Part shown: one piece after another, positions 2,137 through 20,963 of the stretch | How positions within the stretch are numbered: the stretch's first letter is position 1 | Layout of the letters: each line of letters opens with the position of its first letter | IMG/VR virus record: IMGVR_UViG_3300044858_004282 | Span: 1 to 56,811 of that record | Source of the DNA: a virus | Length of the DNA: 56,811 bases | Strand: one strand, 5' to 3' | Notes under the pieces: model-generated | What the model was told of the DNA's origin: nothing | Database searches by the model: none | Seen by the model: the letters and a program-made list of their open reading frames with translations, nothing else | Made by a program: the position numbers and the translations under genes

Positions 2137-2382
2137 TTAATGTATCTTGCTTATTCCCTTTTTAGACCAGTGTAAATAAGATTTAACACCTACTATCCCA
2201 TAAAGGATAGCGCCAAGAATAAAACCGTACTGCTTTGTTATCAAAGCATATGCAGTCCACATAAATTCATTAAATATGAACCAGAGCCAACCAAATCTTT
2301 TCTTCCTGCCAATTACAAACATAGCTGCAGCACCGCTTAAAACAAGCACGTATGAGGCGTAGCTATTTACCCACTGTTCCAT
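2137..2382 (-). CDS. Small membrane protein, PnuC-like topology
   Basis: 81 residues with three hydrophobic segments (about 8-25, 30-48, 52-68) and aromatic-rich text such as FGWLWFIFNEFMWTAYAL. The pattern recalls half of a PnuC/SWEET-type transporter, but it is too short to be a complete PnuC. Could be a subunit of an oligomeric membrane protein. Ends in a basic cytoplasmic tail. Confidence 0.6.
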   Translation of the reverse strand: MEQWVNSYASYVLVLSGAAAMFVIGRKKRFGWLWFIFNEFMWTAYALITKQYGFILGAILYGIVGVKSYLHWSKKGISKIH

Positions 2383-3425: not shown

Positions 3426-3722
3426 TTACCCCTTAATCGCTAGTACGCTTTTTGTATTCAAAAGCAAATACTTTTCTCCGTCTTCATCTTCAATATCAGT
3501 TCCACTGTTTTGGTTATAATACACACTATCCCCAATGGCTAGCCCATTAATTGGTATAAGCTCACCCTTATAGTTGTGTTCACCATTTCCAAGATCAAGT
3601 ATCTTTCCAACCCTGAGAGGAGAATCGCTAAGCGAAGCCATTAAAACTATACCAGATGAAGTAGTTCTATCCTCTACCTTATTCTCTTTAACTAACAATA
3701 AGTTGCCAAATGGCTTAATCAT
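3426..3722 (-). CDS. GroES-like co-chaperonin (Cpn10)
   Basis: 98 residues, the normal Cpn10 length. It starts IKPFGNLLLVKENK, has the mobile-loop region (TTSSGIVLMAS), and ends with the Cpn10 strand pattern IGDSVYYNQNSG ... LLLNTKSVLAI. It would form a seven-subunit lid for the host GroEL; no GroEL is encoded nearby. Phages such as T4 carry their own GroES analogue (gp31) for capsid folding, so a similar role is plausible. A GAGGAG ribosome binding site lies in the end of the 53-aa gene upstream. Confidence 0.85.
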   Translation of the reverse strand: MIKPFGNLLLVKENKVEDRTTSSGIVLMASLSDSPLRVGKILDLGNGEHNYKGELIPINGLAIGDSVYYNQNSGTDIEDEDGEKYLLLNTKSVLAIKG

Positions 3723-3725
3723 TTT

Positions 3726-3887
3726 TTACTCCTCGAACGACTGTTGACTTGCCCAAAACCGATCCTGTGCCGATTTATCTTGTATTTTTTTTGCTTCCAT
3801 AATTACAGAAATTTCTTGATACAGTCTATATCCCAGATATCCGCAGACAGCTAAAGATAAAATAAAAATAATAATAAGTGTTTTCAT
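3726..3887 (-). CDS. 53-aa single-pass membrane protein
   Basis: Begins MKTLIIIFILSLAVCGYLGY, one N-terminal membrane segment or signal anchor, followed by a charged helix. The ATG (3885-3887) lies seven bases after a perfect TATAAT box, predicting a leaderless transcript. First gene of the groES-like operon. Function unknown. Confidence 0.65.
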   Translation of the reverse strand: MKTLIIIFILSLAVCGYLGYRLYQEISVIMEAKKIQDKSAQDRFWASQQSFEE

Positions 3888-3894
3888 ATATTAT

Positions 3895-3923
3895 ATTATA
3901 CTATACACAATGCGGTCAGTCAA
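3895..3923 (-). promoter_or_regulatory. Leaderless-type promoter before the groES-like operon
   Basis: TTGACT (3918-3923), 17-bp spacer, TATAAT (3895-3900), then seven bases to the ATG at 3887 on the minus strand. Confidence 0.8.
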
Positions 3924-3931
3924 TAGCATAA

Positions 3932-4225
3932 TCAAGATAATCCTAAAAAGTGTTTTGAAAGTGCAGTTATGGCAAGCAGTGACCATATTATATTAAACCA
4001 TATTAATGTTGGAAGAGTCTTTACTGTTGATGACCATATCAATGCTAGGCTGGTAACTAAAGCAAATATGAATAGCCACCAAATTTGAACTCCAAAAATA
4101 AGTCCTGGGATAATAATTGCAGCCTTTGTCATAAATGCAAAAAACTCAACCGTGTTTGGCAGATTCCAGTACTCTCTGTGGCGCATAGTGCCAAGAGCAA
4201 CTATCCAATCTTTTCTAAACTTCAT
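3932..4225 (-). CDS. 97-aa membrane protein at the end of the halogenase operon
   Basis: Two or three hydrophobic segments (about 27-45, 48-64, 71-90: IWWLFIFALVTSLALIWSS, TLIWFNIIWSLLAIT) after a basic N-terminus (MKFRKDWIVALGTMRHREYW). Its start overlaps the end of the halogenase gene by 11 bases, so it is translated with it. Export, membrane docking or self-protection are possible roles for a membrane protein in such an operon, but nothing in the sequence decides. Confidence 0.65.
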   Translation of the reverse strand: MKFRKDWIVALGTMRHREYWNLPNTVEFFAFMTKAAIIIPGLIFGVQIWWLFIFALVTSLALIWSSTVKTLPTLIWFNIIWSLLAITALSKHFLGLS

Positions 4226-5804
4226 TGTGAAATCTTTCTTTTAAGTATTTATGGTGATTAGGTGCATCTTTAATTGCCTCTGTCCACTTTTTCACAGAAG
4301 ATTCGCTTCTGGATTTAAAAGTTTGAGCAATATCATTAAAGTCTTTTGATGGATATATATGTTGCCACTCTCTAATTACCTGCTTGGTTACTGGACCCCA
4401 TTCATTTCCTACAGCAATACAATGAAACCCGCACCATCTATCAACATGCAAAGACTTGTTGCTTACCTTATTCATAATTTCTGAGCTAAATGACATTAAG
4501 TGTTCTGAATTAAGAAATGCTCTGCTATTTGGCAGGACATCTCTAGTAGACATGAACTTCCAAAACTCTGTGTCTGTTCTTGAAGTTAATATGTAATGTA
4601 ATTGAACAAAAGATGAAAATGAATCAAAATCTCTTTTTACTTCAAGGTTATATGCTTCTTGATCAAACTTATTATAGTGACCCCTGGATATCATTCTTGA
4701 AATAAGCAGTGAGTGTGAGTGTATAAATCTTAAACCGTTTGATTCAAGTGGCTCTAAGAAAGCTCCAGATAGACCTATAGCAACAACATTTTTGTTCCAT
4801 GGCTTAGATACTATCCCAGACCTAAAACTAATTTCTCTAAAGCTTAGGCCTTCAATTCTGTGTTCACCGTGAGTCTTTCTTAAATGATCTTTAAATTCTT
4901 CCAAGGCATCTTCTGATGATGTAAATTTATCTGAGTATACATATCCAGTGCCTATTCTAGAATAAAGTGGAGCATTCCAAACCCAACCATAACCAAGGGC
5001 TGTACAATTGGTAAATAGTTCTACTTCTTTCTCTGGATCTTCATAAGGTATCTGTACCGCCCACGCTTTATTTACTGGCAACCTGTCTTCATGAGATTCA
5101 AATTCTGTTCCAAGGGCTTCTGTTATAAGAAGTCCTTTAAAACCAGAGCAGTCTATATATAGATCTGCATCGCAAAACTCTCCGTTGTTTAACTTAAGAC
5201 CCTGTATTCCATTTTTATCTTTGATAACCTCATCTATATTTGCCTGAATATGCTTTACGCCCCTAGGCTTTGCATATTTTTCCTTTAAGTATTCAGCAAA
5301 TTTTATTGCATCAAACTGCAATGCCATGTCTTTCATGAAATCAAATCCATCCATCTGCTTTAAGCTCTTTGGCATAAAAACTTTATTTTCCTTCATCATT
5401 ACTGATGATGGAAATAGGTAGTCCACATAGCTTTGTTTTGTTGTTGAAGGATCTAATGATTTTAATATATGCCAGTCGTTTGCTCCTCTTTGAGTGCAGT
5501 TACCCTGGTAAGGATCACCAAATGGATAATGGAATCCACCATCGCCTAAAGCGTAAAAGTCTGTAAACTTAATTGATAGTTTGTATGCAGCGTCAGTAAA
5601 CTCCATAAATTCTTCGTGATCTATTTCTAAAGTGCTCAGCCAAGCTATAAAGCCAACTGTAGTAGACTCTCCTACGCCAATCTTTGGTACATCTGGACTT
5701 TCTATTAGGGTTATATCTCGATCTGGATACTCTTTGATCAAAGTAGATGCTGTCATCCATCCAGCAGACCCGCCACCAACTATGACTATTCTATCTGATT
5801 TCAT
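4215..5804 (-). CDS. Flavin-dependent tryptophan-halogenase-like enzyme
   Basis: About 529 residues, the normal size of PrnA/RebH-type enzymes. An N-terminal FAD fold has GGGSAGWMTA (11-20) and VGESTT (45-50). The catalytic Lys sits in AAYKLSIKF (Lys ~76, equivalent to PrnA Lys79). The WxWxxP signature is present as GWVWNAP (~274-280), and the glutamate of FLEPLES (~352) corresponds to PrnA Glu346. Family members use FADH2, O2 and halide to form hypohalous acid and halogenate tryptophan, other aromatics or Trp in peptides; a separate flavin reductase is needed and none is seen here. Start ATG 5802-5804 preferred over TTG 5805-5807. Phage halogenases are known (the cyanophage enzyme VirX1). 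It sits in an operon with two 2-oxoglutarate oxygenases. Substrate unknown. Confidence 0.9.
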   Translation of the reverse strand: MKSDRIVIVGGGSAGWMTASTLIKEYPDRDITLIESPDVPKIGVGESTTVGFIAWLSTLEIDHEEFMEFTDAAYKLSIKFTDFYALGDGGFHYPFGDPYQGNCTQRGANDWHILKSLDPSTTKQSYVDYLFPSSVMMKENKVFMPKSLKQMDGFDFMKDMALQFDAIKFAEYLKEKYAKPRGVKHIQANIDEVIKDKNGIQGLKLNNGEFCDADLYIDCSGFKGLLITEALGTEFESHEDRLPVNKAWAVQIPYEDPEKEVELFTNCTALGYGWVWNAPLYSRIGTGYVYSDKFTSSEDALEEFKDHLRKTHGEHRIEGLSFREISFRSGIVSKPWNKNVVAIGLSGAFLEPLESNGLRFIHSHSLLISRMISRGHYNKFDQEAYNLEVKRDFDSFSSFVQLHYILTSRTDTEFWKFMSTRDVLPNSRAFLNSEHLMSFSSEIMNKVSNKSLHVDRWCGFHCIAVGNEWGPVTKQVIREWQHIYPSKDFNDIAQTFKSRSESSVKKWTEAIKDAPNHHKYLKERFHNEV

Positions 5805-5866
5805 CAATATGAATCCATTCTAATTAACAACATACTGAACAGCAACAATGGTGTTACTTCAATACT

Positions 5867-6634
5867 TTAGCAGGTTTCTCCGTTAGAAATTTCTCTATCA
5901 TTTAAATCTTTAAAGCATGTTCCGTAAAGAGTATGCCTTTCTCCATTTTTTACTGGAGTTACACGATGAGTAAATTCTTTTGTCATTGGAATTGATATTA
6001 GCATTCCAGCTTTAGGCTTAATTACATACGGCTTATAAGCAAATTCAAGCTGTCCGTCTTCAAAGTCTTCATTTATATACATAGACCATGCTGCAGTCAT
6101 TCCAAAATCATTAAACTCTGTATCTCCAAGTTCTGCTGCCATACTTTTTTCCCAGTGCCACTGATATGCACCGCTGTGATCTGAATCATCTAAAGGCCAG
6201 AATGATTGTAAGGTTATGTCTTCATTCAATCTATTTGGAAGTACTACTTTCATTCTATCGAATACTCCTTCAGACTTGTACCACAACTCTGGGTGATATC
6301 GTGAATCTGTTTCATCTGGAAATATTGCGCTGTTGCTTAAATCTATACCACGTGTTGGGCATATAGTTCCTTCTGGGTGCATTCTATAGTTAACCCCAAT
6401 AAATTTATTTCTAATGGAGCTAGATCTTGATGTTAGATACCATCCAGTTTTATCATCGCAAAATGGCTTTATGTAATCGAGTTCTTCTTTTGTAAGAAAA
6501 TCTGGAATATACCATAGCTCTTTATCTATTATAACTTTTCTATCTTCTAGAATTTGCTTATTCTTAATAAAATAATCTTTAAAGTTTTTTTCTCGCTCAG
6601 AACCAACAGAATCTTCTATTTCATTAAACTCCAT
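5867..6634 (-). CDS. 2-oxoglutarate/Fe(II)-dependent oxygenase (first)
   Basis: 255 residues. The C-terminal half has the double-stranded beta-helix pattern. An H-x-E metal motif lies in AYQWHWEKS, a strand GQLEFAYKPYVIKPKAGMLI follows, then the distal His and the 2OG-binding Arg in FTHRVTPVKNGERHTLYG. Family members hydroxylate Pro, Asp, Lys or small molecules. It starts with a DYIKPF-type N-terminal helix region typical of prolyl 4-hydroxylase-like phage enzymes. It lies between the 98-aa gene and the halogenase in the same operon. Substrate unknown. Confidence 0.8.
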   Translation of the reverse strand: MEFNEIEDSVGSEREKNFKDYFIKNKQILEDRKVIIDKELWYIPDFLTKEELDYIKPFCDDKTGWYLTSRSSSIRNKFIGVNYRMHPEGTICPTRGIDLSNSAIFPDETDSRYHPELWYKSEGVFDRMKVVLPNRLNEDITLQSFWPLDDSDHSGAYQWHWEKSMAAELGDTEFNDFGMTAAWSMYINEDFEDGQLEFAYKPYVIKPKAGMLISIPMTKEFTHRVTPVKNGERHTLYGTCFKDLNDREISNGETC

Positions 6635-6636
6635 TT

Positions 6637-6933
6637 TTAGCTCTCCAATTCTATTTCTTCTATGTTTTCTTTAAAGTACTGGTTAGATAGATCATAAAAC
6701 CATTTAGTAAGTTGATCCAATCTGACTACTCTTGTTTCAATCTTATCTGAGATGATATTGTTTATAGTAACCAGATACGATTCTTCATCTTTTTTTACAT
6801 AAGAAACTTTACCAGTCTCTGTCATAAAAGAATAATCATATGCATCGCCGTTTTTATCAATCCCCTCCGAATTTTCTGGAGAGCCAAAGATAAAGGTTCC
6901 GTGATGCTTTACAGCCTTTTCTAGATCAAACAT
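6637..6933 (-). CDS. 98-aa hypothetical protein between two oxygenases
   Basis: Begins MFDLEKAVKHHGTFIFGSPE, beta-rich then a helical acidic tail (KENIEEIELES). No family recognised. It overlaps the upstream oxygenase by eight bases and lies two bases from the next, so it is translated as part of the tailoring operon; a partner or substrate-presenting role is possible. Confidence 0.6.
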   Translation of the reverse strand: MFDLEKAVKHHGTFIFGSPENSEGIDKNGDAYDYSFMTETGKVSYVKKDEESYLVTINNIISDKIETRVVRLDQLTKWFYDLSNQYFKENIEEIELES

Positions 6934-7816
6934 CTTCCTCTGTAATTATCTGATCAACAATTACTCCCGCTGGAACCGTGCCAGCTTTAATGGCGGCTTC
7001 TTGATTTCTTCTAGCGTTACATTTAATGTCTGCAGAAGTCAAGCTTTCCATTAGTCCTTCTGGTAATTCTTCTGGGTTATCTACTCCAGCATAAGGATTT
7101 TCTAGTAGCGGATGAGCTACCTTATCTTTCCACTGCTGCTTTAATTGATATTGATGAATTCTTTCTTTAAAAATTAATCTTTCCCACTCTTGCAACTGCG
7201 CTTCAGAATACCATGCATCTGCATAATCCCAGAATATAACTATGGTGTATCTTGTTCCAGCGGTAATTTCAGAAACGCTATGAATATTTTCTACACCTCC
7301 AGGGAATGATACGAATGAACCAGTTGGTGGAACAACATCTAAATTGTGATCTCTAAATCTTAAAACCCCACCCTCATAGTCTGGCTGACTATTTAGATAT
7401 ATACCAGAGTACTGCTTGTTATCAGCCCACCCCATATCTTCGCCATCAAGGTCTGTGTTATCTGAGTGATCGTTTGCGTAAGCACCAATCTCCCATTTCT
7501 GTGCATGCATGCTGTTAATCTTCATAGGTCTTCCAGCAGCATCAGAACAATACTGAATCATTCTTTCTCTTAGGTTTGCCATGTATTCTTCAGTTATTGA
7601 AGTACCATGATCTTTGGTAAATGGAGAAACGACATGCATACCGTAAGATCCGTAGAAGCAAATAAATCTCCACTCTTCCTCATTTGCGTTAAAGAACTTA
7701 ATTAATTCTTCACACTCTTCTTTAGAAAGAAAGTTTTCGTACTGCCAAATCCCAGTTCCCCCTCCTCCTAGGAGTTTTCCTCCAAGTTGACTTGTGGTCT
7801 GTGATAATGCTTCCAT
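6926..7816 (-). CDS. 2-oxoglutarate/Fe(II)-dependent prolyl-hydroxylase-like oxygenase (second)
   Basis: 296 residues. WQYENFLSKEECEELIKFF is the usual N-terminal P4H-like start. The metal motif H-x-D is in YANDHSDNTD, and the distal His and 2OG-binding Arg are in ENIHSVSEITAGTRYTIVIF. The conserved GGVLRF and GSFVSFPGG strands are present. The C-terminal ~90 residues are an extra charged helical tail. First large gene after four tiny genes, translated 2 bases after the 58-aa gene. Confidence 0.85.
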   Translation of the reverse strand: MEALSQTTSQLGGKLLGGGGTGIWQYENFLSKEECEELIKFFNANEEEWRFICFYGSYGMHVVSPFTKDHGTSITEEYMANLRERMIQYCSDAAGRPMKINSMHAQKWEIGAYANDHSDNTDLDGEDMGWADNKQYSGIYLNSQPDYEGGVLRFRDHNLDVVPPTGSFVSFPGGVENIHSVSEITAGTRYTIVIFWDYADAWYSEAQLQEWERLIFKERIHQYQLKQQWKDKVAHPLLENPYAGVDNPEELPEGLMESLTSADIKCNARRNQEAAIKAGTVPAGVIVDQIITEEDV

Positions 7817-7818
7817 AA

Positions 7819-7995
7819 TTAAACCTTCTTTCTACCAAATTTTTTAGGTGGAACTGCTGGTGTTTCTCTTCTAATTCCATGCTTATTGACATCAATTTTC
7901 ATTGGTGGTCTTTTTTCCTGTATACCAGATTTAAATTTACCCTGAGAAGGATTCTTTTTTGTTGCCTCTCCAGAGTTTACAACATTTTCTGACAC
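7819..7995 (-). CDS. 58-aa basic, proline-containing peptide
   Basis: GTG start at 7993-7995 overlaps the upstream TAG (TAGTG). The product runs MSENVVNSGEATKKNPSQGK, then Lys/Arg/Pro-rich text including EKRPPMKIDV and PAVPPKKFGRKKV. It looks unstructured. It directly precedes the second 2OG oxygenase, so it is a candidate hydroxylation substrate. No family recognised. Confidence 0.55.
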   Translation of the reverse strand: MSENVVNSGEATKKNPSQGKFKSGIQEKRPPMKIDVNKHGIRRETPAVPPKKFGRKKV

Positions 7996-8102
7996 TATGC
8001 TCCCTTAATTTGTGAGATGGTCACAACATTGTTACTAGCTGGTGATGGAGCTGATTCATTTTGAATCTGCTCATCTTTTCCACATGAACAATCTTTACAC
8101 AT
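7995..8102 (-). CDS. 35-aa Cys-rich micro-protein
   Basis: Starts MCKDCSCGKDEQIQNESAPS: three Cys within seven residues, metallothionein-like, then a Ser/Ala/Pro-rich tail. Overlaps both neighbours (TAATG at its start, TAGTG at its end). Resembles the adjacent 30-aa gene (MCFECGCES), so the two may be a tandem duplication. Confidence 0.55.
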   Translation of the reverse strand: MCKDCSCGKDEQIQNESAPSPASNNVVTISQIKGA

Positions 8103-8194
8103 TATTGATTCCTCTGATCTGATACATCCTGGATACTAACTTCTTTAACTCCAGTCTCGCTGCCTACGCTTTCGCAACCGCATTCAAAGCACAT
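8102..8194 (-). CDS. 30-aa Cys-rich micro-protein
   Basis: MCFECGCESVGSETGVKEVS, three Cys in the same spacing (C-x2-C-x-C) as the next gene. Its TAA stop overlaps the next ATG. Possibly a small metal-binding or iron-donating peptide for the Fe(II) enzymes downstream, or a precursor peptide; neither is proven. Confidence 0.5.
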   Translation of the reverse strand: MCFECGCESVGSETGVKEVSIQDVSDQRNQ

Positions 8195-8195
8195 A

Positions 8196-8348
8196 TTACT
8201 TAGGACCTTGAGCCTGCGCTTGGTTTGAAACGTCTGTTGATGGGAATGCTGCCTTTGGATCAGCTGCGTACTGCTCGTTGTTTCCCCATACTGTTGAATC
8301 GTTTACCTTTGGTGATGTAAATCCGTTTAAATCTTTTCCGTCTGACAT
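8196..8348 (-). CDS. 50-aa polar peptide, first gene of the halogenase operon
   Basis: A strong ribosome binding site (AGGAGT, six bases before ATG 8346-8348) precedes MSDGKDLNGFTSPKVNDSTV, then WGNNEQYAADPKAAFPSTDV and a tail ending AQGPK. It is polar, low in hydrophobic residues, and contains a single Trp. It follows its own promoter. The best translation signal in the operon and its first position suggest it is made in quantity. It could be a structural or decoration peptide, or a substrate of the halogenase and oxygenases. The last codons share a 13-bp sequence with the end of the 46-aa gene. Confidence 0.6.
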   Translation of the reverse strand: MSDGKDLNGFTSPKVNDSTVWGNNEQYAADPKAAFPSTDVSNQAQAQGPK

Positions 8349-8375
8349 GTTATTACTCCTATAGGTTATTTATTT

Positions 8376-8414
8376 AAGCGGGACTAGTATTCCGCTTATG
8401 ACTCTATTATAGCA
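8376..8414 (-). promoter_or_regulatory. Extended -10 promoter and leader hairpin
   Basis: Minus-strand TGC-TATAAT (8406-8414) is an extended -10 element; no good -35 was seen. The ~60-base leader contains AAGCGG (8376-8381) pairing with CCGCTT (8392-8397), a 6-bp stem upstream of the ribosome binding site, which could be an operator or a stability hairpin. Confidence 0.6.
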
Positions 8415-9326: not shown

Positions 9327-10733
9327 TTACTTAAGCAAGGTAACCTTAGCTTTTGGATTCTTCTTATTCCACTGAGTAGCCAACTTATTAAATGCAGCCT
9401 TCATAGACTTAATCGCTGCAGCATTATCTGCAGTCAACTTAGCAATCTGTGCATCCTTAGCGAGTAGAGCAGCATCTGATGCAGTCTTTGCATCTGCAAG
9501 TGACTTTGCACCCGCTACCTTCTCTGTTGCTACAGCATCTGCAACTGCCTTATCTGAAGCAGCCTTTGCATCTGCAAGTGCCTTATCTGATGTAGCCTTT
9601 AGATCAGCAAGTGCCTTGGCATGTGAAGCCTTTAGTTCTGCAAGTTCTGCAGTAAGTGTTGCAAGTGAAGCATTCGCTGCTTCCAAGTCCAACTTGAACT
9701 GTGCAATAATCTTATCAGCAGCAACGCCTGCATCTGCAAGTGCCTTTAGAGCGCTTGCTTCTGCCTTCTTTGCATCAGTTGCTTCTGCTGTTGCCTTTAC
9801 TATGTCAGCATTGGCCTTTGCTAGGCTTTCTGCAAGTGCAGACTTTGCCTTAACCTCTGCCTCTAGTTGAGCCTTTGTTGAAGCGTGTGCTGCTCTTTCA
9901 GCAGCAAGTGCTGCTTTCTCAGCAGCAAGTTCTGATACTAGATCACGAACTGTAATTTCTGCAAATGGTGCTAGTGCACGAGCAGGAAGACCAACTACAT
10001 CTACAGTTGTTGCATCCGATGATGTTGTAGGTGAAAATGTGATTAGTGATCGTGTTCCAGTTGTTGGAAGTGTTGCGACAAACTTTGCAACTCCAAAATC
10101 TGAAAGTGTAGCACCAGTTGTTGCTGTTGCTGTGTCTAGTGTTGCTGTTGAAGCAAAAACTGTTGCAGTAATTGACTTAGCAGATACCTTGTTACCAAAT
10201 GTATCTGTTGCAGTTACTGAGATGTCTTGCTTTGTACCAGCAGCACCTGTAGCAGGAGCGGATACTGTAAGAGTATTAATCTTACCAGCAGTTCCCTGTA
10301 CGTAGTATGTAAGTTGTGTTCCACCATTGGTAATTACAACTGTACCGATTGCTGTTGTCTTTGTGTAGACATAAAATGTTGCTGTTGTTCCTGTACCAGT
10401 TGCAACTGTCAAAGATGATGATCCTGATGTTGCTCCTACTGGTGCAGCAGTTGTGTGTAGTGCAGACACGATTGTTGCGTTTGTTGCTACTACAGAAACT
10501 GCTGTTCCTGTGTCAACTGTTGCTACGAACTTAAGTGCGTCTGCAGCGTCAACTGTGTTGTCTGCAGGAACTGGCAATGCGGCAGGTGTTGAGATTGATG
10601 AAGCGGTTGTGTTAGCCGTTCCAGCAAGCTCTACAGCGACTGTCATTACAGCAGCACTTGCAGGTGTTGCTACCATTGTGCCCAAAGTCATGGCTGCAAC
10701 CATGGCTAGTGCGATTTTCTTAAATGAGTTCAT
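9327..10733 (-). CDS. Secreted surface protein with Ig-like region and long coiled coil
   Basis: 468 residues. A clear signal peptide (MNSFKKIALAMVAAMTLGTM ... ATPASA|AV, cleavage near residue 27) is followed by ~220 residues of Thr/Ala/Val-rich beta text. A bacterial Ig-like unit lies around 150-255 (TLTVSAPATG, DISVTATDTFGN). Residues ~265-445 are a continuous Ala/Lys/Glu coiled coil with a conserved basic end, FNKLATQWNKKNPKAK. The layout resembles S-layer or adhesin-like proteins of small aquatic Actinobacteria. A phage-encoded exported protein could coat the infected cell or be a virion decoration. Single gene followed by a terminator, so it is probably a separate transcript. Confidence 0.75.
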   Translation of the reverse strand: MNSFKKIALAMVAAMTLGTMVATPASAAVMTVAVELAGTANTTASSISTPAALPVPADNTVDAADALKFVATVDTGTAVSVVATNATIVSALHTTAAPVGATSGSSSLTVATGTGTTATFYVYTKTTAIGTVVITNGGTQLTYYVQGTAGKINTLTVSAPATGAAGTKQDISVTATDTFGNKVSAKSITATVFASTATLDTATATTGATLSDFGVAKFVATLPTTGTRSLITFSPTTSSDATTVDVVGLPARALAPFAEITVRDLVSELAAEKAALAAERAAHASTKAQLEAEVKAKSALAESLAKANADIVKATAEATDAKKAEASALKALADAGVAADKIIAQFKLDLEAANASLATLTAELAELKASHAKALADLKATSDKALADAKAASDKAVADAVATEKVAGAKSLADAKTASDAALLAKDAQIAKLTADNAAAIKSMKAAFNKLATQWNKKNPKAKVTLLK

Positions 10734-20353: not shown

Positions 20354-20760
20354 TACTTCCCGCTTTTCTTCCTAGCTTTTGCTAATGCATCAAAGTCTTT
20401 GATCTTTGTTTCACCCATATAGCCCCAAGCATGTCCATCTTCAATCATCTTTTGATTAATAGATTTATCTGATCCGTCTAAGAAAACCCAACCTAAAATG
20501 CGACCAAACTTTTCAGATGAGTTCATCTTCTCTGTTTTAATAACAACAGTCTTAGCTGAATCAATTGCATTCTTTAAATATGCCTTTGCTTCAAGGCCTA
20601 GTGCCTTCTCCATCTTGTCTGTTGTACGGCTTTCTGGGGTGTCTATACCAGCCAACCTAACTCTTGAAGTAAATGATATATCAAACCCAAGATCAATATC
20701 AACATCAATTGTATCTCCGTCTACTACCTTACTTACTTTCTTTACATAATATTCGAACAT
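20353..20760 (-). CDS. Staphylococcal-nuclease-like (thermonuclease) protein
   Basis: 135 residues from ATG 20758-20760, which overlaps the upstream TAA. SNase fold: VSKVVDGDTIDVDIDLGFD, RVRLAGIDTPESR, KFGRILGWVF, and a C-terminal HAWGYMG helix region. The conserved Asp/Arg/Glu residues are present. Lacks a signal peptide, so it would act inside the cell, for example on host DNA or RNA. Confidence 0.85.
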   Translation of the reverse strand: MFEYYVKKVSKVVDGDTIDVDIDLGFDISFTSRVRLAGIDTPESRTTDKMEKALGLEAKAYLKNAIDSAKTVVIKTEKMNSSEKFGRILGWVFLDGSDKSINQKMIEDGHAWGYMGETKIKDFDALAKARKKSGK

Positions 20761-20963
20761 TATTTTCTCCCCCATTTAATTTTATTCCAACCACGCTCAT
20801 GGAAGTAATAAAGAATTGTTTTTGTTAGTACCTCGAAGCTTGCGATTGCTCCTGCTGTAACTGGCTCTTTAGTTATGATCCATGAAATAACAAATGTATC
20901 TGCTGTTCCAATTATACGCCATGTGATAGCTTTTAGCGCTGACCTTTGCTTAGATACATTCAC
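20760..20963 (-). CDS. DUF2061 small membrane protein
   Basis: 67 residues. NVSKQRSALKAITWRIIGTA, a hydrophobic segment, TAGAIASFEVLTKTILYYFH then ERGWNKIKWG is the full DUF2061 pattern. GTG 20961-20963 overlaps the upstream TGA (GTGA) and is preferred to GTG at 20970-20972. Often found beside kinase/APS genes in bacteria, as here; the function is unknown. Confidence 0.8.
   Translation of the reverse strand: MNVSKQRSALKAITWRIIGTADTFVISWIITKEPVTAGAIASFEVLTKTILYYFHERGWNKIKWGRK

Follow-up and report, generated by a model that had tools for sequence, protein, structure and literature searches.

The window analysed here is a whole virus record from IMG/VR (IMGVR_UViG_3300044858_004282, 56,811 bases) that belongs to a lake-type phage. 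On its minus strand, between 3,932 and 8,414, lie four tiny genes, two oxygenase genes, a gene for a 98-aa protein, a halogenase gene and a gene for a small membrane protein that we call memb. An earlier note, made from the letters alone, read these as a single operon behind one promoter, nearly all of it start-stop coupled, that may modify a small peptide, a virion protein or a cell-surface molecule. All nine open reading frames (ORFs) that it listed are present on the minus strand at the sizes it gave, but the stretch consists of three units: a tiny-gene operon, a variable slot, and an inserted pair made up of halogenase and memb. The features are listed below in the direction of transcription, followed by a second insertion site elsewhere in the window.

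8406..8414, minus strand: extended -10 promoter element TGCTATAAT of the tiny-gene operon, conserved upstream of p50
8375..8398, minus strand: leader RNA hairpin between promoter and p50, with a 7-bp stem and a CUAG apical loop, supported by covariation
8196..8348, minus strand: p50, the first tiny gene, its Trp not conserved (20 distinct sequences)
8102..8194, minus strand: p30, tiny protein with N-terminal MC.ECGC (35 distinct sequences)
7995..8102, minus strand: p35, tiny protein with N-terminal MCK.C.C (25 distinct sequences)
7819..7995, minus strand: p58, basic tiny protein with a GTG start and the alignment core D.N.HGIRRET..GRKK, right edge of the tiny-gene row
6926..7816, minus strand: oxyA, predicted 2-oxoglutarate (2OG)-Fe(II) oxygenase, PF13640 and phrog_61 (54 loci)
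6637..6933, minus strand: p98, usual companion downstream of oxyA (p98 match in 49/53 loci, L012-L064)
5867..6634, minus strand: oxyB, predicted 2OG-Fe(II) oxygenase, PF13640 and phrog_61
5808..5866, minus strand: gap upstream of the halogenase, holding a promoter-like site that is weak here (TTGAAG 5862-5857, 17 nt, TTCAGT 5839-5834), from junction comparison
4215..5804, minus strand: halogenase, predicted flavin-dependent, of the VirX1 kind (529 aa from ATG 5804; 530 aa from TTG 5807)
3932..4225, minus strand: memb, 97-aa membrane protein, overlapping the halogenase by 11 nt (4215-4225)
3895..3923, minus strand: p53 promoter-like site TTGACT-17-TATAAT, right border of the inserted pair
20758..20762, minus strand: empty second site, TAATG, where a DUF2061-like stop overlaps an SNase-like start and where other phages carry the halogenase-memb pair

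Halogenase and memb form one portable two-gene unit. Searches with halogenase or oxyA as bait gave 95 loci, and with L311 dropped (the same contig as L173) there remained 94 contigs that had been fetched without memb as bait. In 91 of these the two genes share 1-14 nt at the halogenase stop. The arrangement is not found in L007 and L229, which have no memb in the locus, or in L010, where 2.1 kb separate halogenase and memb. Near-identical contigs are many in IMG/VR, so counts of this kind overstate the number of independent cases, and the related-locus searches kept the best 80 of 221 for memb, of 293 for p58, and of 153 and 232 for two others. When memb was the bait, every record of at least 60 kb among the loci fetched, the scope of all our statements on long records, holds a halogenase (22/22, as 8 + 11 + 3, counting the record of L008, which was also found by memb). 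The halogenase match in the L323 record is weak and in two pieces, and in the long records of L399, L408 and L419 the halogenase lies roughly 9-40 kb from memb. Twenty fetched records of this length were found via p58 or oxyA; two hold both genes and 18 hold neither. In 129 divergent memb loci, which include some contigs twice, a halogenase stands directly upstream of memb in 53 loci and a DnaG-like primase in 23, and the remaining 53 have a halogenase further up the same strand (34), elsewhere in the locus (8) or not in the stretch fetched (11). Where scanned representatives have a gene between halogenase and memb, it matches 2OG-FeII_Oxy_5, Asp_Arg_Hydrox or 2OG-FeII_Oxy_3, or has no Pfam name. 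The overlapping halogenase and memb genes are probably translated in a coupled way.

By sequence comparison memb is the constant part of the pair, since copies 72-82% identical to that of the window stand beside halogenases of just 27-32% identity. Its ratio of nonsynonymous to synonymous polymorphism (pN/pS), 0.22, is the third lowest among the 13 genes measured, and 27 columns are invariant across 46 divergent members. Helices are predicted at residues 22-44, 49-65 and 72-94; invariant polar residues lie within them (N24, E27, K34, S59, T73 and N78), and the loop between helices two and three (66-71) has invariant S66, T67, K69 and T70. Two AlphaFold models (mean predicted local distance difference test, pLDDT, 78 and 73.5) give a short N-terminal helix followed by three long ones. 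At the limits used, searches of PHROGs, Pfam, NCBIfam and the PDB matched the protein to nothing; each of two stray Pfam hits (E 0.09 and 0.19) concerned a single member. It was not matched in named phages either. A pattern search of genome contigs for a cellular homologue returned 33 stretches, none of which was confirmed, two conserved stretches having been used so that distant relatives could escape. The earlier note had placed the membrane protein last and assigned it no role; its presence is borne out, and it turns out to be the most constant partner of the halogenase.

The halogenase matches PF04820 (Trp_halogenase) with E 6.1e-99 and 332.4 bits against a cut-off of 21, over profile positions 1-408 of 458, and phrog_2928 with E 1.3e-133; in the PDB its closest match is VirX1 (6qgm; residues 1-527, E 7.6e-86). 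Flavin-dependent halogenases bind flavin adenine dinucleotide through a GxGxxG motif, use a catalytic Lys and Glu, and carry W.W.IP as a hallmark. The catalytic motifs are intact, as the earlier note had it: GGGSAGW, K76 and E352 (530-aa numbering). In 27 representative halogenases the Lys and Glu are invariant and GGG(S/T)AGW is found throughout, and the W.W.IP region reads WVWNAP in the window, with both Trp and the Pro kept and Ile replaced by Ala, WMWKIP in most group-2 proteins and wvwnip in VirX1. By family and by its intact FAD-binding and catalytic residues the protein is a flavin-dependent halogenase, with halogen transfer as the predicted activity. Sixty-six named phage records match it. 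In two surveys of whole records, each of the 46 halogenase-positive ones has a single halogenase (46/46), and adjacent halogenases do occur in the divergent set. A review counts, among cyanophages, halogenases in 20/153 and 2OG enzymes in 76/153 (PMC10452541), and a tryptophan halogenase is named in phage DSL-LC01 (PMC10611076).

Elsewhere, the neighbours of the halogenase include tail-fibre, collagen-like, LamG, glycosyltransferase and 2OG genes, and the enzymes near it are 2OG and Asp/Asn-type hydroxylases, a glycosyltransferase, a carbamoyltransferase and a sulfotransferase. Such neighbours make a virion protein or a cell-surface molecule, the other two targets named in the earlier note, plausible candidates. 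Carbamoyltransferase genes stand close to the halogenase at L229:5569-7011 (Nol-like, by PHROGs) and L223:6491-7510 (by eye). Genes matching phrog_7084 or phrog_17480, and look-alikes of these, repeatedly flank the halogenase (L010:3209-6905, L327:222-1771, L007:10112-11582).

Two sites of insertion can be recognised. In seven relatives (L013, L014, L016, L018, L020, L023 and L029) the first site is empty, and oxyB is followed directly by the p53 promoter; in L002-L004 it is filled, with the pair exactly between oxyB and that promoter. The reading as a single coupled operon does not hold at this junction, where a gap of about 60 nt separates the end of oxyB at 5867 from the halogenase start at 5804 or 5807. 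The promoter position in the gap is good in L004 (TTGAAT-17-TACAAT) and weak in the window (TTGAAG-17-TTCAGT, 5862-5834). At the second site, the 80 group-2 loci have just upstream, in 55 cases, a gene that we take to be DUF2061-like and just downstream, in 65, one that is presumably SNase-like. This site is empty in the window near 20,760. Three relatives (L016, L019 and L060) have the tiny-gene operon, an empty first site and the pair just before the SNase-like gene; a DUF2061-like gene was not seen upstream of it in these three.

The trees of the two proteins disagree. In the halogenase tree the window trio groups with L005, L006, L008, L009 and L132 (support 96/98), and in the memb tree it falls in a 16-row clade with 12 group-2 rows and L035 (100/99). 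Forcing the halogenase grouping on memb was rejected by the approximately unbiased (AU) test (p 0.018, log-likelihood 18.0 lower), for a group chosen after the identities were seen. Joining the trio with all group-2 rows gave p 0.078 on memb and p 0.086 on the halogenase, neither of them decisive. A partner swap between halogenase and memb is likely but not proven, because the latter, mirror test was not rejected at 0.05.

The four tiny genes are a conserved core operon of their own, with their own promoter and leader hairpin. That the four ORFs are genes, as had been proposed, is confirmed by pN/pS values of 0.59 for p50, 0.42 for p30, 0.38 for p35 and 0.34 for p58, over 28-54 distinct copies each. 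The promoter placed at 8406-8414 in the earlier note is supported by conservation: TGnTATAAT occurs in all 38 distinct p50 upstream sequences, mostly near -66 (range -62 to -88), and a loose ribosome-binding-site pattern is likewise found in 38/38. A general sigma-70 scan gave 18 sites against 18.5 expected, the level of chance. Across 34 distinct leaders, 97.1% of the cells of the hairpin are paired and six of its eight pairs have changed on both sides; the covariation score is 0.512 against 0.204 +/- 0.020 when shuffled, and pairing falls to 28-48% when the partner is slid. The hairpin matches no Rfam family, tRNAs alone being found in that search, and the pattern of its loop has a single exact occurrence in the window and one more that differs at one position. 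Because it begins at about the expected transcript start, we would guess that the hairpin protects the 5' end of the messenger. The adjacent p30 and p35 (7995-8194, minus strand) share an N-terminal CxxCxC that is kept across the family and is perhaps metal-binding.

The search with p58 confirmed 293 stretches, and in the best 80 of these the genes to the left of p58 are p50 in 67, p30 in 70 and p35 in 58. Of the same best 80 of 293, 26 carry oxyA at no less than 60% identity and 4 carry the halogenase, and the tiny-gene row is kept in many relatives without a halogenase or these oxygenases. Behind p58 lies a variable cargo slot, occupied here by p98 and the two 2OG oxygenases. Taken as far as p53 or GroES, the slot is closed in 48 of these best 80 loci, in which it measures 592-3,935 nt. 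The cargo in scanned representatives includes 2OG and Asp/Asn-type hydroxylases, cytochrome P450 with a short-chain dehydrogenase, a luciferase-like monooxygenase, a peroxiredoxin, a sulfotransferase-like protein, a glycosyltransferase, or a lone gene without a Pfam match. The P450, dehydrogenase, monooxygenase, Asp/Asn-type hydroxylase, peroxiredoxin, sulfotransferase-like and glycosyltransferase genes are seen behind p58 in L238, L248, L264, L287, L294, L297 and L305, which marks the slot as a hotspot for cargo.

The oxygenases themselves were rightly named by the earlier note. The protein oxyA matches PF13640 (2OG-FeII_Oxy_3) above the cut-off (E 1.6e-7) and phrog_61 (E 1.4e-18), and oxyB matches the same two, with E 9.5e-6 and 26.9 bits, just below the 27-bit Pfam cut-off, and with E 4.7e-12. 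The defence-system search with PADLOC gave for both just a generic 2OG model. An oxygenase-halogenase unit as a general rule was considered and rejected: of 44 records with a halogenase or memb, 25 also have PF13640 genes, and by reading of positions these lie no more than about 5 kb from the halogenase in 8 of the 25. The adjacency of halogenase and 2OG genes in the cyanophages S-CREM1, Sf-CH11 and S-WAM1 is a separate case.

With the stretch divided into three units, the explanation that we favour, with moderate confidence, is that the pair carries out membrane-linked halogenation of a host envelope or exported molecule. Given the family membership and the intact residues, the halogenase would draw reduced flavin from the host, together with oxygen and halide, to form an electrophilic halogen species at the conserved Lys/Glu site, which would then be transferred to an electron-rich ring. 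That memb takes part is suggested by its overlap with the halogenase gene, by its co-occurrence with it and by its conservation; it would perform a membrane step by anchoring the enzyme, delivering substrate or halide, or carrying the product out. The probable purpose would be to change, in the infected cell, a molecule that the host exports or holds in its envelope. The hydroxylases, glycosyltransferase, carbamoyltransferase and sulfotransferase near the halogenase elsewhere suggest that envelope or surface molecules are modified. A bolder and more tentative version of this idea, possible in our judgement, treats memb as a constant membrane module loaded with exchangeable oxygen-using enzymes, mostly halogenases and sometimes also a 2OG or Asp/Asn-type hydroxylase, that would chemically remodel a host molecule, whether membrane-bound or exported, for instance to keep out superinfecting phages. 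In it the mid-helix K34 and the Ser, Thr and Asn residues would handle an anion, either halide or product.

Several observations weigh against membrane-linked halogenation by a fixed pair. L007 and L229 have a halogenase without memb in the locus, and the absence of memb from the matches in named halogenase phages means that the halogenase class does not always need it. Ten of 40 memb records, in a first survey that covered 40 of the 80 memb loci kept, have no halogenase, all ten being pieces of 10-40 kb. The two both-gene records among the 20 found via p58 or oxyA are close relatives, so that this table amounts to about one event, and the unrejected mirror test (p 0.086) bears on the partner swap. 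In 23/129 divergent loci memb lies directly behind the DnaG-like primase (L131 was checked with Pfam), yet in L399 and L419, which are of this type, the long records hold a halogenase elsewhere. Comparison of folds gives memb no support as a transporter, and the top rows disagree. Foldseek returned no match at E 0.001 or better; VIA-align placed the mitochondrial pyruvate carrier (MPC) protein MPC1 (9giy_A) on top for the first model (Z 8.5, root-mean-square deviation 5.2, 95 aligned) and listed SemiSWEET 4rng_C (Z 6.5, 4.1, 76 aligned), and for the second model, from a deeper alignment, it ranked ExbB/TolQ first (Z 7.5) with MPC at 7.0. A p50-like gene (47-49% identity) is found within a few kb of the pair in L132, L137, L141 and L346, so a looser neighbourhood of p50-like genes and the pair does exist.

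Among other explanations, we consider it unlikely, but worth weighing, that residues of a tail fibre or another adhesin of the virion are the target of the halogenase and, independently of it, of the 2OG oxygenases, with a change in host binding or stability as the result. The halogenase lies beside tail-fibre, structural or collagen-like genes and 2OG enzymes in S-CREM1, Sf-CH11 and S-WAM1, beside collagen-like genes in DSL-LC01 (with no 2OG gene annotated nearby), and beside a phytanoyl dioxygenase and structural genes in HTVC008M. L106 has the order collagen-like tail fibre, halogenase, memb, glycosyltransferase, its collagen Pfam match being below the cut-off, and in L010 a LamG protein stands behind memb. 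The window halogenase also matches weakly, far below cut-offs, the models of LodB and QhpG, which we take to be flavoenzymes acting on protein residues. Against this, the pair does not adjoin tail genes in the window, in which no collagen-type repeat was found, and its main group-2 location is between the DUF2061-like and nuclease-like genes. Syn10 and S-B64 have no 2OG gene annotated within 4 kb of the halogenase, and modification of a virion protein in the cytoplasm needs no membrane partner. Collagen as a general substrate was rejected on the count of repeats near the pair: 0/80 group-2, 1/10 group-1, 1/80 first memb and 17/129 divergent memb loci.

Equally doubtful is halogenation of a small molecule, in which a free indole, phenol or quinone would be the substrate and memb would export the product or give tolerance. 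The nearest PDB relatives besides VirX1 are tryptophan halogenases such as RebH and PrnA, VirX1 reportedly iodinates diverse substrates, to go by the title of its study, and the invariant polar residues in the predicted helices and loop 66-71 of memb are in keeping with such a role. Against it, no third gene was found to accompany the pair with any regularity, Pfam and NCBIfam scans matched memb to no family of exporters, and the fold searches give no agreed family.

Much less credible is the pathway envisaged in the earlier note, resembling that of a ribosomally synthesized and post-translationally modified peptide (RiPP), in which oxygenases and halogenase modify one tiny peptide. In the window, L002-L004 and L006 the tiny genes lie next to the oxygenases and the halogenase, the p50-like gene stands near the pair in the four loci named above (at G095:94421-94555 in the record of L346; p58 was not detected in L346, L132, L137 or L141), and oxyA has a weak, far-below-cut-off match to the peptide 2OG model YhhC. 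Related phages nevertheless keep the enzymes without the small genes, a pattern that the note itself had set against the idea. The 25 long halogenase-bearing records have no detectable p58 in 22 and no detectable p50 in 21, these searches having used a single query sequence each, so that diverged copies could escape. Three of the remaining long halogenase records (L016, L019 and L060) carry the halogenase at another locus, and of the 20 long records from phages of the window's kind, 18 retain p58 and lack a halogenase. A further search for p58 in seven group-1 records, run without a positive control, found none. oxyA (at least 60% identity) is present at just 26 of the best 80 of 293 p58 loci. 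Tiny genes are also kept in L269, whose sole slot gene has no Pfam match, and in L302, whose slot, going by its ORFs, holds just two of 65 and 76 aa. The single Trp of p50, put forward as a halogenation site, occurs in 4 of 5 distinct p50 sequences whose locus has a halogenase and in 9 of 15 whose locus has none, and is missing from the p50 of halogenase-bearing L004 (listed also as L067); being neither required nor specific, it is an unlikely site. Pfam and PHROGs show no class-defining RiPP enzyme (YcaO, LanM, radical SAM or similar) among the ten proteins at 3426-8348. From co-occurrence and residue conservation, action of the halogenase on the tiny peptides was judged unlikely. Just as improbable is hitchhiking, with memb as a selfish or general phage gene, unconnected with halogenases, that merely occupies the same cargo sites, as its place behind primases and at more than one genome site might suggest, in view of the overlap in 91/94 contigs, the halogenase in 22/22 long memb records, including the primase-type L399 and L419 with the genes kilobases apart, and the pN/pS of 0.22.

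Membrane-linked halogenation, the reading we prefer, can be set beside known systems. Phage halogenases were already known; what is unexpected is that the membrane partner is so constant and that the pair is set so cleanly apart from the tiny-gene operon. The window enzyme resembles VirX1 (6qgm) and the prnA-like genes of cyanophages (phrog_2928) in its full-length match, its catalytic Lys and Glu and its phage origin; it differs in the absence of a memb match in named phages, in WVWNAP for W.W.IP, and in genome context. The freshwater actinophage DSL-LC01 (OQ999401) likewise has a halogenase in its genome, but there it lies between collagen-like genes and a glycosyltransferase, and memb was neither annotated nor found. 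Phage Gtr-type surface-conversion cassettes combine a constant small membrane protein with exchangeable enzymes in a short portable cassette. The halogenase-memb pair is like them in logic alone, for 20 memb members gave no GtrA Pfam match and the enzyme is a halogenase and not a glycosyltransferase. The likeness of the memb model to three-helix carriers such as MPC and SemiSWEET (Z 8.5 and 6.5) is a lead only, memb having no PDB sequence match and ExbB outranking MPC with the deeper alignment. In titles and abstract openings we found no report of a halogenase paired with a small membrane protein. To our knowledge, no natural substrate has been established for a viral halogenase. None is given in the portions available of three papers (PMC10452541, PMC3037559 and PMC10611076).

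A constant memb beside a changing halogenase points to the membrane as the place to look for the target, and the two-gene unit is small enough for expression and testing. Lists of auxiliary metabolic genes show the halogenase by itself; joined to memb, it can be tallied across aquatic viromes as one of two linked genes. As for the host, the DNA polymerase III alpha subunit of the window is, among named phages, nearest to that of Streptomyces phages such as BillNye (57%), which is weak evidence that suggests an actinobacterial host. Another membrane-type protein of the window, of 81 aa (2137-2382, minus strand), is widely conserved in these phages and has no NCBIfam match. A 468-aa protein at 9327-10733 (minus strand) has an apparent signal peptide, a Lys/Ala-rich C-terminal half and no PHROG match, and proteins resembling it recur near halogenases in L008 and L141.

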